A DNA stretch of 44,635 bases from NCBI GenBank assembly GCA_945787525.1, contig CALZJC010000018.1, forward strand, positions 1 to 44,635. Direction: 5' to 3'. A program made the position numbers and the translations under genes. Origin of the DNA: Thermoanaerobaculia bacterium. GTDB taxonomy: Bacteria > Acidobacteriota > Thermoanaerobaculia > Multivoradales > JAHEKO01. The notes beneath the pieces are model-generated. The model ran no database searches. It worked only from the letters and a program-made list of their open reading frames with translations, and was not told the DNA's origin. Positions 6,352-14,706 of this stretch are shown piece after piece. Positions within the stretch are counted from its first letter, which is position 1. Each line of letters opens with the position of its first letter.

Positions 6352-6463
6352 CTAAACCGGCTGCGGGTTCTACTCGCTGCCGTGCGCGAGCCGACCCCAA
6401 CGCCAGAATCCGACTGGCAGACACTGGCCGAGTTCAAGCGGCCGTGACCGAGGTTTGCGGAAT

Positions 6464-6645
6464 GCGGTGACAGGCTACTCATTGGGGCCGAGGTTTGCAG
6501 CCCGTGGTGTCAAACTGAGGAGCACGTCAGGGCACCGCGCTGCGTCACGCGGCACCCCTGGAACGACGAGTCGGGCAAAGCGAGTCGTCGTTTGGATGGA
6601 CGGAAACGGTCGTCGGCTCTTGGCTAATGAGTAGCCTGTCACCGC
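6464..6645. mobile_element. MITE-like element copy 2 (182 bp, perfect 20-bp TIRs)
   Basis: Same TIRs as copy 1 (6464-6483 and 6626-6645) and near-identical interior. Confidence 0.85.
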
Positions 6646-7005
6646 TGTCAGCGCAGGTGAATCCTGCAAACCAGATGGTCGCGGGCTGGTCACACACAAG
6701 GGGCAATCGAGGCGGGAACACCCTGGCGGGGAGTTCACATCTTTGCCTGCCGAGGCGGTTGATCAGTGACAGCCATGACAGTCGAACAGGCTACTCGCCA
6801 GCTCGATGCATGGTGTTCCGAGAGCCAGGGAACCAGACCACTCGAGCTGGATCCCGGACTGAGGCTCACAACAGAACGGGGTTGGACCATGAGCCACGGG
6901 GCACCTGGCCACGGGAGGTCCGGGCTATCCGAGATCTCGACTGATATGGGCGACTTATCGGACTTGATACCTCACCTGGCTTGGCGAGCCGGGGCCGCCC
7001 GGGGC

Positions 7006-7329
7006 CTAGCGAATCCGTAAGTGGGCGTCGTTTGCGCCGCGGGGCACAGGAATGGCTTTAACGCGACGCCCGCTGCGGGTCCACCACGCTTTGACGATTC
7101 GGCCCCGGCCTCCGACCACCAGCCAGGCAAGGTGAACGTCATTGGCACCTGGCGGCGCTAGATTGGGACGGCCGATGTTCCTGCGATCTCGCGTGAACTG
7201 AAGGATCGCGCGCACGACAATCGGCTTCTTCGCCGGCTTCTTGGCAACCCTCTTCTGCGCGACCTTCTTCTTGGCGACCTTCTTCTTGGCGGTCTTCTTC
7301 TTGGTGGCTCGCTTCTTGGCTGCTGGCAT
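7006..7329 (-). CDS. Lysine-rich histone H1-like small protein
   Basis: MPAAKKRATKKKTAKKKVAKKKVAQKRVAKKPAKKP... then RAILQFTRDRRNIGRPNLAPPGANDVHLAWLVVGGRGRIVKAWWTRSGRRVKAIPVPRGANDAHLRIR. Confidence 0.65.
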   Translation of the reverse strand: MPAAKKRATKKKTAKKKVAKKKVAQKRVAKKPAKKPIVVRAILQFTRDRRNIGRPNLAPPGANDVHLAWLVVGGRGRIVKAWWTRSGRRVKAIPVPRGANDAHLRIR

Positions 7330-7568
7330 TCGAGCACCCCTTTCGGTTTTGATCACGCAGTCGCTCTCTGCGTAGTGCGCAATCAAGTATGTACTCACCA
7401 CACTATAGAGCTTCGACATGCAGGACGCCATGCGCGGCTGGCCGGGCTGTAGGTGCATCTGGCCTCCTCGATGTCGAAGCCCACCTGACCGGCGAGGTCG
7501 ATCTGCGGTTCAAAGCGGACTTCTTCCCACTCAAGCGTTTCGCCGACGCCAGCGCGCAAGCGGGGCCG

Positions 7569-7659
7569 ACAAGGTCCCACCCCAACAAGGTCCCACCCTC
7601 AAGAAGGTTCCACCCGAGTACCCCCAAGAAGGTTCCAAGAAAGGTCCCACCCGAGTACC
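7569..7659. repeat. Degenerate short tandem repeat (AAGGTCCCACC / AAGAAGGTTCCACCCGAGTAC units)
   Basis: Direct reading: caaggtcccaccc caacaaggtcccaccctcaagaaggttccacccgagtacccccaagaaggttccaagaaaggtcccacccgagtacc. Confidence 0.7.
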
Positions 7660-7698
7660 GGAGCAGTCGGCTCGGCGAGTCTGGAATGCGGTTGAAAT

Positions 7699-7860
7699 GC
7701 GGTGACGGGCTAGTCATTGGGGCCGAGGTTTGCGGTCCGCGGCATCAAACTGGAATGCGGTGACAGGCTACTCATTGGGGCCAAGGTTTGCAGCCCGCGG
7801 TGTCAAACTGGGGAGCACGTCAGGGCACCGCGCTGCGTCACGCGGTACCCCTGGAACGAG
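7699..7860. mobile_element. MITE-like element copy 3: tandem left-end units then truncation (no right TIR)
   Basis: GCGGTGACGGGCTAGTCATTGGGGCCGAGGTTTGCGG...TCAAACTGGAAT at 7699 followed 58 bp later (7757) by GCGGTGACAGGCTACTCATT...; homology with copies 1/2 ends near CCCCTGGAACGA (~7858). Confidence 0.8.
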
Positions 7861-8007: not shown

Positions 8008-8211
8008 CTACCTACAGGGGCCGCGCGTGTCGCCATGCCGGAGATGGGCATCGGCTGCTGGCGCGGGCACCTCCAAGGTCTTCTTTCCCTTGTGACAGAG
8101 GACCACCTTCTCTTGCCCTCTGCCCGGCGTCGGGTGCACGGTGGCTACACATCCCAGCCCGGCGAGCGCCGCCAGGGTCACTAGCAGCGTGATCAGTTGT
8201 CGTGCTCTCAT
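8008..8211 (-). CDS. Small putative lipoprotein with C-H...HL.HGD..G.C motif
   Basis: MRARQLITLLVTLAALAGLGCVATVHPTPGRGQEKVVLCHKGKKTLEVPAPAADAHLRHGDTRGPCR: lipobox-like LGLGC, then CHKGKKTLEV...AHLRHGDTRGPC. Confidence 0.7.
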   Translation of the reverse strand: MRARQLITLLVTLAALAGLGCVATVHPTPGRGQEKVVLCHKGKKTLEVPAPAADAHLRHGDTRGPCR

Positions 8212-8484
8212 GCGCCTATCGTATGCCCTCCGCCCGGCCCCTACGCCTCCAAACCTGCTGCGCCCATGAGCTGGGCTTCCCGCCTGACCGCCGGTGGCGC
8301 CGGCTCTGTACCCAAAGACTCCGACCGCTTCATCTGGCCGGTTCGCGGCGGCCAGTGACCGGCTCGTTGTAACGCCCCGCCCCCGACGCTAATCGCGGGA
8401 GCCACGGACGGCCCTGCCTGCCTGACCTGCCCGCCAGGGTGGCGACGCTCCGGCAGCGTGAGGCGTAATCTGAAGGCTGCCTCG

Positions 8485-8562
8485 ATAAAGGCACGGCCAG
8501 GCGAAAGCCTGACTCCGCAAAGCCTCGGGTCCGAGAACACTTCCAGATCGCCGGGCTGCCGA
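8485..8562 (+). promoter_or_regulatory. GEMM-I-type (cyclic-dinucleotide) riboswitch aptamer
   Basis: AAAGGCACGGCCAGGCGAAAGCCTGACTCCGCAAAGCCTCGGGTCC...AGATCGCCGGGCTGCC: GAAA tetraloop hairpin (CAGGC-GAAA-GCCTG), CGCAAAGCC..GG tetraloop-receptor element, closing CCGGGCTGCC strand as in Vc2-type GEMM RNAs. Confidence 0.82.
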
Positions 8563-8565
8563 AAG

Positions 8566-8590
8566 GCTGGCACGAGAGGAGGCCAGCATG
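8566..8590 (+). promoter_or_regulatory. SD-containing hairpin immediately upstream of an ATG (putative riboswitch expression platform)
   Basis: GCTGGC (8566-8571) - ACGAGAGGAG - GCCAGC (8582-8587) then ATG 8588; SD GAGGAGG lies in the loop/stem. Confidence 0.6.
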
Positions 8591-8763
8591 TCCGTGCAGC
8601 GTGTGGTTGTAAGTTCGGTGAGGTCGACGCCAACGTGACGACCTACGAGAGGGGGAGGTCCTGCTGCGACATCTCCCCGTGCTCTTGCGCCGCGGTCAAC
8701 GCGTCCAGCGGGTGGGGGACGTCGGACGGCAGCAACATCGTCGTCTTGTCTACGGACTGCTGA
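8588..8763 (+). pseudogene. Cys-rich mini-ORF, apparently frame-disrupted after its start
   Basis: ATG 8588 opens MSVQRVVVSSVRSTPT*; the adjacent frame from 8602 reads CGCKFGEVDANVTTYERGRSCCDISPCSCAAVNASSGWGTSDGSNIVVLSTDC*. Confidence 0.45.
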
Positions 8764-8920
8764 GGCCCCCCTCCCCCCAGGCCCCGCCGGGGACGCGAGC
8801 AGTCTGTCGGACGGCGTGGGATATCGGAGGTCAGCGACCGGACGGGGTCACGGCGGCGAGGGCCAGGCTCGCGGCTTCTGGTACCCCCACGGCGACCTCG
8901 AGGCTAGTACGATTCGGCCC

Positions 8921-9319
8921 ATGACCTATTTCACCGCCTTTGCCGCGACGCTCGTCTCCTTCCTCGCCATCGACCTGGTCTGGATCACGAAGGTGGTGCG
9001 ACCGCTCTACGAGAGGGAGGTGCCCGGGCTGCTGCGGGACACGCCACGTCTCGGGGGGGCGTTGCTCTTCTACGTCGCCTACGTGGCCGGAATCGTGCTC
9101 TTCGCCGTGCGGCCGGGCATGGCGCAGCAATCGGTCGGCACCACGCTGGCCTATGGGGCGGCTTTCGGGGCGCTGGCCTACGCGACCTTCACCGTCACCA
9201 ACTACGCGGTGCTGAACCAATGGACGCTGACGCTCGTGGTGACCGACATCGCCTGGGGAGCGGTGCTGACAGGGGTCGCCGGGGCCTGCGGCTTCTACGC
9301 GGCGCGGCTGATCGACTGA
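8921..9319 (+). CDS. DUF2177-family membrane protein
   Basis: MTYFTAFAATLVSFLAIDLVWITKVVRPLYEREVPGLLR...YGAAFGALAYATFTVTNYAVLNQWTLTLVVTDIAWG; hallmark DUF2177 segments. Confidence 0.88.
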   Translation: MTYFTAFAATLVSFLAIDLVWITKVVRPLYEREVPGLLRDTPRLGGALLFYVAYVAGIVLFAVRPGMAQQSVGTTLAYGAAFGALAYATFTVTNYAVLNQWTLTLVVTDIAWGAVLTGVAGACGFYAARLID

Positions 9320-9867: not shown

Positions 9868-10139
9868 GATGTCCGTCGGAGGAGGTTCTCCGAACCGAGA
9901 TCGGAGACCCGGGTCACCAACACCAACTTACCCCAGAGCTTCAGGAACAGACCTGATCTGAAACGTCAGGACCAGTTCTCCCTCGAGCCGTCCAGGTCGA
10001 TGGGGTGGCGGGCTCCCACGCTAGGATGGGGCCAGTGGACCTCCACAGCAGGGCGCCGTTGCTTGCCGGGGACCCGGGCCCGGAACTTCGACGCCGGGTC
10101 GCAGTCCAAGTGGAGGTGGTCAACGATTGGAGGCCTGCC

Positions 10140-12566
10140 ATGAGTCGCTTTCTGAAGACCGCACTGGCTGCGACCGCAGTTTGCTTTCTGGTGGGGGCAG
10201 CGCAGCTCCGGGCGGAGCAGAAACTCGACCTTCCGGAGCTCGAGAAAACAGGAGTCGTCGTACCGTGGCAGGACTTCAAGCTCATTCTCGAGGAGATCCG
10301 TCGGCAGCCGGTCGTGCCGCCCGAGCCTCCGCCGGTGGATTTCGCTTTTTCGCAGTGCGAGGTCATCGCGGTCGCCGACCGGGACGAACAGCATCTCAAG
10401 CTCGGGCTCGGCTTCGAGGTGCAGATCCTCAACCCCGACAGGTGGGTGGAGGTGCCGATCCTGCCGGCCGGGGTGGCGATCTCCTCGGCGACGATGGACG
10501 GCGCTCCGGCCAGGCTCTACGACCGCAACGGCTCCTTGAATGTCGCGCTGAGAGGCGCCGGCCGACATCGTTTTGCGATCGAGATCGTCGCGCCCGTGCA
10601 GGACAGCCGGGGTCACCGCACGGCGCAGCTGCGTTTCCCGGCGGCGCCGTCCGCGACAGTCGATCTGAGCATTCCGCGCGGCAATCTGGAGGTTCAATTC
10701 ACCGGCGCAGTCCTCCAATCGGTGGCTGGCTCCGCCGAATCCACGCAGGTCCGAGCGGCGTTGCAGCAGACCAGGAATACGACCGTCACCTGGTTTCGCA
10801 GGGTCGAGGCCGACAAGAAGAGCTCCAAGGTTTTCGTCGAGCTGGCGACTCTGGTGACCATTGGCGAGGGAGCGCTGCGCGGCGCCTCCACAGCCTCCTT
10901 CGTGATCCACGGCCGAGGGGTGGACACTTTCCGCTTCGACCTTCCCAAGAGCATCACGGTTCTCGATGTCAACGCCCATGGTCTCTCCTCGTGGGAGGTC
11001 GGCACCCCGAACCCCGAGAGTGGGCGAGCCGAGCTGCTGGTGAATCTCAACTTCGAGGCTCAGGGGAACTACTCATTGCAGATGAGTTTCGAGCATCTGC
11101 TCGAAGGCACCTCTGCCGAGTTCGACCTTCCCGATCTCGGGGTGCTCGACGTGTTTCGCGAACGCGGCTTTATCGCCGTGGCAGCGGCCACCAACGTCGA
11201 GATCACCCCCCACGGAGAGATCGAGAACGCCGCGCCGGTAGACCCGGCCGAGCTCCCACAGGGCCTCGTCGCCGCTGCCGGCGACACGGTGTTGTATGCC
11301 TTCAAGTACCTCAAGCACCCGGTCGTCGTGCCGCTCACGGTGACCAGGCACGACGACGTGGCCGTCAAGCGCACCATTATCGAGCTGGCGAGCTTGCACA
11401 CCTTCATCAGCCCCGAGGGCAAACGGATCACCTCCGCTGTCTACCGGATGAAGAACAACCGAAAGCAGTACCTGGAGGTCGCTCTCCCCGACGACGCGGT
11501 GCTGTGGGGCGCCTACCGAGACAGGCTGCCGGTCAAGGCGGCACGCCGCGAAGAGGGCGAGATTCTGGTGCCGCTCAAGAAGACCGCGGTTAGCGCCTCG
11601 GGTGAGCTCGAGACCTTTTTTGTCCAGGTGGTCTACTTCGAGCCGGGGGCCGGTATCTCCACCCTGGGCAACCGCCGGCTGTTCGCGCCGCAACTCGACG
11701 TGGACACCTTGGAGGTCCGGTGGGAGGTCTTCATGCCACGCGACAAGCGGTACTTCTGGTTCTCCGGAAACCTGGAGTGGGAGCCGGGCGTCAACCGCAT
11801 CGCATACCTCGGGAGCGCCGCCTACAATCTCGACAATCGGCGGGACCTGAAGAAGCTGGCTCTCGTCGAGCGACACGGGCGGCGGGTCATCACCGATGGC
11901 GACAACGAGGTAGCCGTCGACGAAGTCCGGGTCTCGGCGACCGGCGAGGATCGTCGACTGTCGCAGGAGGAGATGGCGCGGATCGAGGTCGGCAAGATTA
12001 TGGCGCCGGACTCTCCCGACGAAGCCGAGGCACTGGAGGAGGGGCAGCTCGAGGACGACAAAGCGCGGCCGGCGCCGTCCGGTCGGCAGGCTGGGCAACT
12101 CGTCACCCAGGTTCCGGAGCGCTCAAACGTCGCCTTTGGCACCTATCAGGACGTCCGGGGAGTCGGCGGAAACGCCCGCGGTGTGCTTCCCGTGCGGTTC
12201 GATCTCCCCTCCGAGGGCCTGCGCCTGTCATTTGTCGGCCGGCTGATGACCTCCGAGGAGCGGCCTTTGATCGCGATGCGTTTTGTGCCCGCGGCCTGGC
12301 GCCTGCCGCGGCTCGGCCTCTTCGCGGTTGTGCTCCTGACCTTCATCTCGACGCTGTCAGCCGGCCTGATCGCCAGTCGCGGACTCACCGCGCTGTCGCG
12401 CGGCGCCCGGGCCGGGCTCATCGCAGCCGTCGCGGTCTTGCTCGTGACCCTCTACCTTGCAGGGGGGCATCGGATCGCCTTTGTCATGACGTGTGCAGTG
12501 GCCCTGGCTTGCTGCTATGCCATCTGGCGGCTGGCCGGCCGGCCAGACACCGTCGAGGGATTCTGA
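10140..12566 (+). CDS. Large exported envelope protein A (tandem paralogue 1), C-terminal TM segments
   Basis: MSRFLKTALAATAVCFLVGAAQLRAEQKLDLPELEKTGVVVPWQDFKLILEEI...PPEPPP; shares WQDF, SGFVAVA-like, KNNRKQ(Y/F)L and C-terminal TM layout with the next ORF. Confidence 0.82.
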   Translation: MSRFLKTALAATAVCFLVGAAQLRAEQKLDLPELEKTGVVVPWQDFKLILEEIRRQPVVPPEPPPVDFAFSQCEVIAVADRDEQHLKLGLGFEVQILNPDRWVEVPILPAGVAISSATMDGAPARLYDRNGSLNVALRGAGRHRFAIEIVAPVQDSRGHRTAQLRFPAAPSATVDLSIPRGNLEVQFTGAVLQSVAGSAESTQVRAALQQTRNTTVTWFRRVEADKKSSKVFVELATLVTIGEGALRGASTASFVIHGRGVDTFRFDLPKSITVLDVNAHGLSSWEVGTPNPESGRAELLVNLNFEAQGNYSLQMSFEHLLEGTSAEFDLPDLGVLDVFRERGFIAVAAATNVEITPHGEIENAAPVDPAELPQGLVAAAGDTVLYAFKYLKHPVVVPLTVTRHDDVAVKRTIIELASLHTFISPEGKRITSAVYRMKNNRKQYLEVALPDDAVLWGAYRDRLPVKAARREEGEILVPLKKTAVSASGELETFFVQVVYFEPGAGISTLGNRRLFAPQLDVDTLEVRWEVFMPRDKRYFWFSGNLEWEPGVNRIAYLGSAAYNLDNRRDLKKLALVERHGRRVITDGDNEVAVDEVRVSATGEDRRLSQEEMARIEVGKIMAPDSPDEAEALEEGQLEDDKARPAPSGRQAGQLVTQVPERSNVAFGTYQDVRGVGGNARGVLPVRFDLPSEGLRLSFVGRLMTSEERPLIAMRFVPAAWRLPRLGLFAVVLLTFISTLSAGLIASRGLTALSRGARAGLIAAVAVLLVTLYLAGGHRIAFVMTCAVALACCYAIWRLAGRPDTVEGF

Positions 12567-12567
12567 G

Positions 12568-14706
12568 TTGAGTGTTCTCAGACCCGGCTTCGTCGGCGTT
12601 GCCCTGGTTCTGTGGGCCATCGCCGTTCCCGCTCAGCAGCCGCCGGAGCTGCCGGCGCTCAGCGGCACCGAGCTCACCCTCTCTTGGCAGGACTTCAGGA
12701 GTATCGTGGAGAGGACCTACGTCCCTCCAACCCCGCCGGTAGAGCCTCCCGAGGACGCCTTTCTGCGCGCCGCCGAATACACCGGCCGGCTCGACAGGGG
12801 CGTCTTGACACTCGACGCCACGCTGCAGGTGGAGGCGCTCAAAACGGGCTGGGTGAGGCTTCCCCTCTGGGCCGACGGCGCCGTGGTGAGCTTTGATGGC
12901 GACGGCGCGCTGCTCCATCGCAATGGCGGCAGTGTGGAGGCAGTGGCTCAGGGCCCGCGCACCTTTCGGATGCGAGCCCGGCTCGTCCTGCCGGCCACGG
13001 ACCACCCGGGAGAGAACAGGATCTCTCTGACACTGCCCGACGCGCCGCTCAACCTTCTCGACCTCGAGGCGGGTCCCGGGCTGCGCGATCTGGAGGTGGA
13101 GGCGGGTCTGGCTTATCGACGCCAGCCCGGCCGGGTATGGGTGGCTCTGGTCGGCGGCCGAGCCACCGTCCGCTATACCCTCCCGTTTGCCCGCACCGAG
13201 AGCGAGACGGGCGAAGAGCTGGAGCTCGAGCCCAGAGTGCTCGTCACGGCGTACCAGCTGCTGAGCCTGGGGGAGGGGGTGGTGCAAGGCACCCTGGTTC
13301 ACGACTATGAGGTGCAGGTGGCCAAGGTGGACCACTTCGACGTCACCCTGGAGGACGGCGTCGAGGTCTTCGACGCCTCGGCCCCGGGTCTCGAGAGCTG
13401 GAAGATCTTGCAGCGGGAGGGAGAGCGGGTCCTACGCATCAAGCTGGCCGCGCCGACCGAGGGAGCGGTGCGTGTGGTGGTCAGCTTCGAGGGCAGCTAC
13501 GACGCGGAGGCGGGAGTCGTCGAGGTACCGCGCTACCGTCCCGACGATGTCGAGCGGGAGTCGGGTTTCGTCGCCGTAGCCGCCGACGGCGCGGAGGTAG
13601 ACCTCGAGCTCGACGGCAATCTGCTACCCGCCGACGTCAGCGAGATCCCTCCCGATATCCGTGCCTGGGGCGGCAACCTCGTAACCGGATTCAAGTACTC
13701 CGGTGCCCCCGATCGCTCGCGCGTGAAAGTGACCGAGCACGAAGACGCGCCGGTGCTGATGGCTATCGTCGAACGCCTCAACGCCACTAGCGTGTTGCTC
13801 GCCAACGGCGTCGAGGCCAGCTGGATCGACCTCGTGGTGAAGAACAATCGCAAGCAGTTCCTCAAGCTTCGAGTGCCCGAGGGAGAAGTGGAGATCTGGT
13901 CTCTGCTGGTGGACGGACAGCCCACCCGACCGAAGCAAACGGGTAACGATGTCCTGGTTCCGCTGCCAACCACTGCCACCGAGGTCACCACGGGGATCTC
14001 GTTGGTGCTGCTCCGCCGGGGCCGGAGAATCGGCAGTCTTTCGGGCGTGGCCCCCTATCTGCCGAGCTTCGACATCCCCGTTTCCGAGGCGCTCTGGTCT
14101 CTCTACCTGCCGCCGGACAAGCTCTACTCGGTCTCCGACGAGGCCTTTTCCGTTGTCGCGAATACAGCCGCTGTGCGGCGAGGGCGCCCTGTTGGCGGCC
14201 GGTTGGCGCCCAGGGGGCCTGTTTCCTACGAGACCGAGGGCGCCGTGTCCAAGGACACCTACGAGGCTCAGGACAAACAGGAGGCCAAGATCACTCAGCA
14301 GCTCAGGGCGCGTCCGGGCGCCTCCCGCAAGGGCGCCCTGCCAGTGCGCATCGCGCTGCCCGGCGGCATCTCTTCGATGGCGAAGGTCAGCGTCGCCCGG
14401 ATCCTGATGGTGGACGAGACCGAGACGGTACTCCGGATGAGGGCCTTTCCACGCTGGACCCGCTCTCTGACACGCTTCGTGCAGTTGATGTTGATTCTGG
14501 CAGCGGGGCTTCTCGTCGGCCTGCTGGCGGTCGGTCGCCTGCCGCGCCAAAAGCTGCCCGGGGTCGCCGCGTTGTTGGTCGCCGCGCTTGTTCCCTTCGG
14601 CGGTATTGGCGTGATCAGCGCTGTGATTCTCGCGGGCCTCGTGGCTGGGGCCGTCTTCCTCGCCTCATCGATCGCCCGCCGTCGCAGTCTGCAGGCCGGC
14701 GACTAG
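12568..14706 (+). CDS. Large exported envelope protein B (tandem paralogue 2), C-terminal TM segments
   Basis: TTG start 1 nt after upstream stop (TGAGTTG); ...LPALSGTELTLSWQDFRSIVERTYVPPTPPVEPP...SGFVAVAADGAEVDL...KNNRKQFLKLRVPEGEVEIWSLLVDGQP. Confidence 0.8.
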   Translation: MSVLRPGFVGVALVLWAIAVPAQQPPELPALSGTELTLSWQDFRSIVERTYVPPTPPVEPPEDAFLRAAEYTGRLDRGVLTLDATLQVEALKTGWVRLPLWADGAVVSFDGDGALLHRNGGSVEAVAQGPRTFRMRARLVLPATDHPGENRISLTLPDAPLNLLDLEAGPGLRDLEVEAGLAYRRQPGRVWVALVGGRATVRYTLPFARTESETGEELELEPRVLVTAYQLLSLGEGVVQGTLVHDYEVQVAKVDHFDVTLEDGVEVFDASAPGLESWKILQREGERVLRIKLAAPTEGAVRVVVSFEGSYDAEAGVVEVPRYRPDDVERESGFVAVAADGAEVDLELDGNLLPADVSEIPPDIRAWGGNLVTGFKYSGAPDRSRVKVTEHEDAPVLMAIVERLNATSVLLANGVEASWIDLVVKNNRKQFLKLRVPEGEVEIWSLLVDGQPTRPKQTGNDVLVPLPTTATEVTTGISLVLLRRGRRIGSLSGVAPYLPSFDIPVSEALWSLYLPPDKLYSVSDEAFSVVANTAAVRRGRPVGGRLAPRGPVSYETEGAVSKDTYEAQDKQEAKITQQLRARPGASRKGALPVRIALPGGISSMAKVSVARILMVDETETVLRMRAFPRWTRSLTRFVQLMLILAAGLLVGLLAVGRLPRQKLPGVAALLVAALVPFGGIGVISAVILAGLVAGAVFLASSIARRRSLQAGD

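Follow-up and report, generated by a model that had tools for sequence, protein, structure and literature searches.

A c-di-GMP-I riboswitch with an SD-enclosing hairpin and without its clade's usual target in a Thermoanaerobaculia bacterium

The DNA analysed here (the window: the whole stretch of 44,635 nt, contig C18 of a 4.43-Mb assembly in 550 contigs that is 89% complete) carries a genuine c-di-GMP-I riboswitch, an ordinary good member of Rfam family RF01051. It is followed by a hairpin that encloses an SD sequence and by a start codon, and it lacks the exported-protein gene that usually lies behind such switches in this clade. Our best explanation, with a probability of roughly 0.55, is a translational ON switch whose usual target is missing, the Cys-rich frame behind it being no conserved gene.

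The aptamer, its promoter and its ligand

8466..8471, + strand: -10-like element TAATCT of the riboswitch promoter, placed by the TANNNT spacing across GEMM loci
8480..8563, + strand: c-di-GMP-I (GEMM-I) riboswitch aptamer, Rfam RF01051, with the selectivity base G8490

In the cmscan search of the window a single riboswitch was found, RF01051 at 8480-8563 on the + strand, with 47.6 bits (E 2.3e-6) at a gathering score of 35 bits. The alignment runs over the full length of the model (1-87) and the aptamer is complete; each of the 19 consensus pairs for which both bases are present is a standard pair, and no other family scored better for this aptamer. A preliminary description had recognised a GEMM-type riboswitch from the sequence alone, and the covariance model confirms this. 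Its aptamer start at 8485 was nearly right, the model match beginning slightly upstream.

GEMM riboswitches of the cGAMP type carry an A at the selectivity position. At the window locus this position (model position 11) is G8490, so the A that marks GEMM-Ib cGAMP riboswitches was not found. G11 of Cd1, the equivalent of G20 in Vc2, is described as a factor in selectivity among cyclic dinucleotides (PMC9262584), and the G20A variant has been examined with cGAMP (PMC6274999). Because the selectivity base is G, the c-di-GMP type is expected, and the ligand looks like c-di-GMP rather than cGAMP. Thus the GEMM type named in the preliminary description holds, and 3',3'-cGAMP, which had been offered there as the second possible ligand, is argued against.

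Across 96 GEMM loci, a TANNNT element was counted 43 times at a distance of 13-15 nt 5' of the aptamer. Within the last 25 nt before the aptamer it is present at 52 loci, with about 20 expected from shuffling. At the DNA level, 8440-8520 is kept at 81-82% in two further loci. Transcription would accordingly be placed near 8478-8479, just upstream of the aptamer.

The SD hairpin and a possible mode of switching

8566..8587, + strand: SD-enclosing hairpin with the stem GCTGGC/GCCAGC (arms 8566-8571 and 8582-8587); SD AGGAGG at 8577-8582, mostly in the loop
8479..8567, + strand: proposed P1 closing pairs GCC/GGC (8479-8481 with 8565-8567), read from the sequence

The SD hairpin is real and locally unusual. 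The perfect 6-bp stem that the preliminary description had pointed out, with the SD in its loop and abutting ATG 8588, is present: six Watson-Crick pairs enclose AGGAG, and the ATG follows directly 3'. A stem of at least 6 bp arises in only 0.4% of shuffles (P 0.004), and none of 116 control SD-ATG starts in the fetched DNA has a stem of such length. The folding z-score of the 35-nt hairpin piece is modest (-1.89). In RNAs running at least 20 nt beyond the ATG the hairpin is predicted with a probability of 0.98-1.0; in a 120-nt RNA that ends at the AUG the value is about half (~0.55). A general SD-hairpin design was not found in the clade's short-linker switches: arm swapping at 25 starts (p 0.37) led us to reject such a hairpin as their clade-wide platform. 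Since it is not general among these switches, the window hairpin could be coincidental.

The suggestion of translational control, also made in the preliminary description, finds support in a hairpin that exceeds chance and overlaps the proposed P1, though such a hairpin does not recur in the clade. It is suggested because the 5' arm of the hairpin shares bases with the likely P1 closing strand, P1 taking two bases of this arm. Across the clade's loci, the complementarity between the 5' and 3' flanks of the aptamer is slightly greater than expected from arm swapping (mean stem 4.09 vs 3.85, p 0.014). When P1 was enforced in the folding model, at a cost of about 9 kcal/mol, the outer hairpin pair went to 0 and an inner pair to 0.36.

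The interpretation that we favour is the following. The RNA would start just upstream of 8480 and open with the c-di-GMP-I aptamer. Without ligand, the hairpin at 8566-8587 would keep the SD in its loop beside AUG 8588 and hinder initiation; as most of the SD is unpaired in the hairpin, this repression is perhaps weak. With c-di-GMP bound, P1 would use 8565-8567, in part the hairpin 5' arm, and leave a shorter hairpin, which would permit more initiation. The locus would then act as a translational ON switch. Activation by ligand is the simplest view of this platform, and ON with ligand is possibly the direction of switching.

GEMM-I loci in the clade

RF01051 was found in 29 of 59 genomes (the source assembly and 58 relatives), including 15 of the 17 relatives from the same family (G002-G014, G016, G017), and a single genome can carry as many as 18 copies. 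Downstream DNA was read at 96 GEMM-I loci. The start codon typically lies 18-130 nt past the aptamer, starts having been sought within 140 nt only. Among the 59 loci whose first ORF is clear under a rule blind to hydropathy, 52 encode a hydrophobic N-terminus, compared with 23 of 83 control ORFs (p 4e-13); the size of this effect is approximate, as hydrophobicity was scored by a crude hydropathy window and the controls include some spurious ORFs.

Judged by these N-termini, the clade regulon looks like a group of exported proteins under c-di-GMP control. The usual target in the clade would be an exported-protein gene, and the window locus is without one; most likely its target has been lost or broken, or is no more than a very small leader peptide. 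The window riboswitch adds a well-supported c-di-GMP switch to its lineage. Within one bacterial family the switch is reused many times per genome, mainly before export-like N-termini, which gives a testable c-di-GMP regulon. The locus also carries a caution: an open frame behind a riboswitch is not automatically its target.

Several other loci deserve mention. At L118/L147 (G010:C90) and L146 (G009:C178) the leader has the riboswitch promoter but contains no more than the aptamer's 5' half ahead of a gene; the gene of L147 is NAD(P)-binding-like and has its SD in a GCAC..GTGC context. These leaders are possible half-riboswitch relics. At L030 (G013:C83:5044-5125) GEMM-I precedes the gene for an exported-looking protein of 148 residues, 11.5% of them Cys. 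In the window itself, a small lipoprotein-like ORF on the minus strand (8008-8211) has a CHK...HGD..GPC-type motif that resembles part of the GEMM-controlled exported protein in L029. The stretch 6455-7850 is gene-poor and has similar segments near 6500 and 7750, with similar ORF translations.

Candidate targets and comparison with known systems

8588..8638, + strand: 16-codon ORF MSVQRVVVSSVRSTPT, started from the SD, with TGA at 8636-8638; too short for family searches
8590..8763, + strand: Cys-rich frame, -1 relative to ATG 8588, an open frame only, with TGA at 8761-8763
8921..9319, + strand: DUF2177 membrane protein, the next gene downstream (Pfam PF09945, E 7.9e-38)

The arrangement of frames is as first described: the ATG frame stops after 16 codons at TGA 8636-8638, and the adjacent -1 frame, which reads CGCKFGEV...STDC, is open to 8763. 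The proposal built on it, that a cyclic dinucleotide controls a Cys-rich peptide whose frame is broken or recoded, is not supported: the searches returned no homologue and no family for the frame, its codons are ambiguous, and no similar Cys-rich ORF was seen after the aptamer at the 95 other GEMM-I loci surveyed.

Neither the 39 related genomes searched nor plasmids nor a scan of contigs across GTDB gave a homologue, and none appeared in phages at meaningful E-values. Viral contigs gave no relative apart from one chance match, the IMG/VR locus L148, which is antisense to another ORF, has an internal stop and lacks a riboswitch. Comparison with Pfam, NCBIfam and PDB yielded no family and no credible match; the hit to PDB 8tl0 (E 0.054, domain E 0.95) was discarded. 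The weak matches L008, L009, L010 and L013 were read and contain no matching ORF, and no orthologous locus was found by synteny with DUF2177 and an 810-residue neighbour. The preliminary description had named homologous loci as a check on the Cys-rich ORF. In relatives, DNA-level conservation is restricted to the promoter-aptamer part and lost after about 8580, and neither frame is conserved. A Cys-rich mini-protein is thus not supported.

Nor is the open frame as such remarkable, because the DNA is GC-rich: about 29% of random sequences with the same composition keep a single frame open over such a length. Its first-position GC is 0.47, compared with about 0.7 in most window genes, which may be due in part to the Cys/Ser/Thr/Gly composition. 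The positional GC of the frame on the reverse strand looks more like that of a gene, but no relative of it stands out from noise.

Could the Cys-rich frame still be a real lineage-specific small gene, interrupted early by a one-base contig error or a natural frameshift? The strong SD-ATG is placed as at other GEMM loci, there is a 3-base periodicity in 8560-8829, GC3 is 0.84, and the GEMM-controlled gene of one relative (G013:C83) likewise encodes a Cys-rich exported protein. The synonymous codons (log-ratio -1.9 bits) score above the non-coding null (p 0.03) but below coding expectation (p 0.005), and the GC contents of first and second codon positions are exchanged compared with the window genes. 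Moreover, unlike most of the regulon, the product would have no signal peptide, and it has no homologue in everything searched. We therefore lean to the frame not being a gene and consider this reading rather unlikely.

The switch might instead act by read-through on the DUF2177 membrane protein gene, the interval being a leader. This is the next gene on the same strand, and no strong terminator lies between, the single match at 8725-8742 being weak. However, the gap is 357 nt, an SD-ATG stands right after the aptamer, and the DUF2177 loci of relatives are without an Rfam riboswitch. The gene has no SD of its own and a TACGAT box at 8908-8913 ahead of it, which suggests that it may have its own leaderless promoter. 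Control of DUF2177 by the switch is thus improbable. Further downstream, 10134-12566 and 12595-14706 are two genes side by side that are related to each other (30% identity over part of their length); they have no Pfam match and only distant single matches, in 4 of 39 relatives.

Alternatively, the 16-codon ORF could be a leader peptide whose TGA overlaps GTG 8635 (GTGA) and couples translation of a 42-residue Cys-rich peptide with no frameshift. The overlap is directly visible in the DNA, and a related locus has a similar layout: at L101 (G005:C85), GEMM-I is followed by an SD and a 20-codon ORF, possibly a coupled leader peptide, with its stop TGA and the main gene's ATG sharing bases (ATGA). 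Yet any TGA after A, G or T yields such an overlap, and the 42-residue product has no homologue and a synonymous score of only +0.6 bits, so that this coupling seems quite improbable. Taken as one proposal, control of a lineage-specific Cys-rich micropeptide by the c-di-GMP riboswitch, whether by termination-reinitiation at the GTGA of the short overlapping leader ORF or by recoding, is very unlikely. Programmed ribosomal frameshifting that fuses the 16-codon frame to the Cys-rich frame is the least likely of these readings: the order in which the frames overlap is the right one, but inspection revealed no slippery heptamer in the 16-codon frame, and neither frame is conserved in the relatives searched.

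We thus favour the ON switch without its usual target, in which AUG 8588 would now open the 16-codon frame, and the Cys-rich frame that follows would most likely be no conserved gene but a remnant or a chance frame.

Among known systems, c-di-GMP-I-GGC (RF03167) belongs to the same clan as RF01051; two weak GEMM-like loci in relatives (L141, L145) score best with RF03167, below its cut-off. The GEMM-Ib cGAMP riboswitches of Geobacter share the fold family and differ in the selectivity position, which is A there and G at the window locus. Like the genomes of this clade, G.sulfurreducens has many GEMM-I switches (n=17; PMC8835794). The closest likeness is to the c-di-GMP-I riboswitches of RF01051 such as Vc2 and Cd1. 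The window locus differs from them in having no recognised target gene and in its platform, a short hairpin with the SD in the loop; it shares with them the complete aptamer, the selectivity G and the position at the start of the presumed mRNA, followed by an SD and a start codon.
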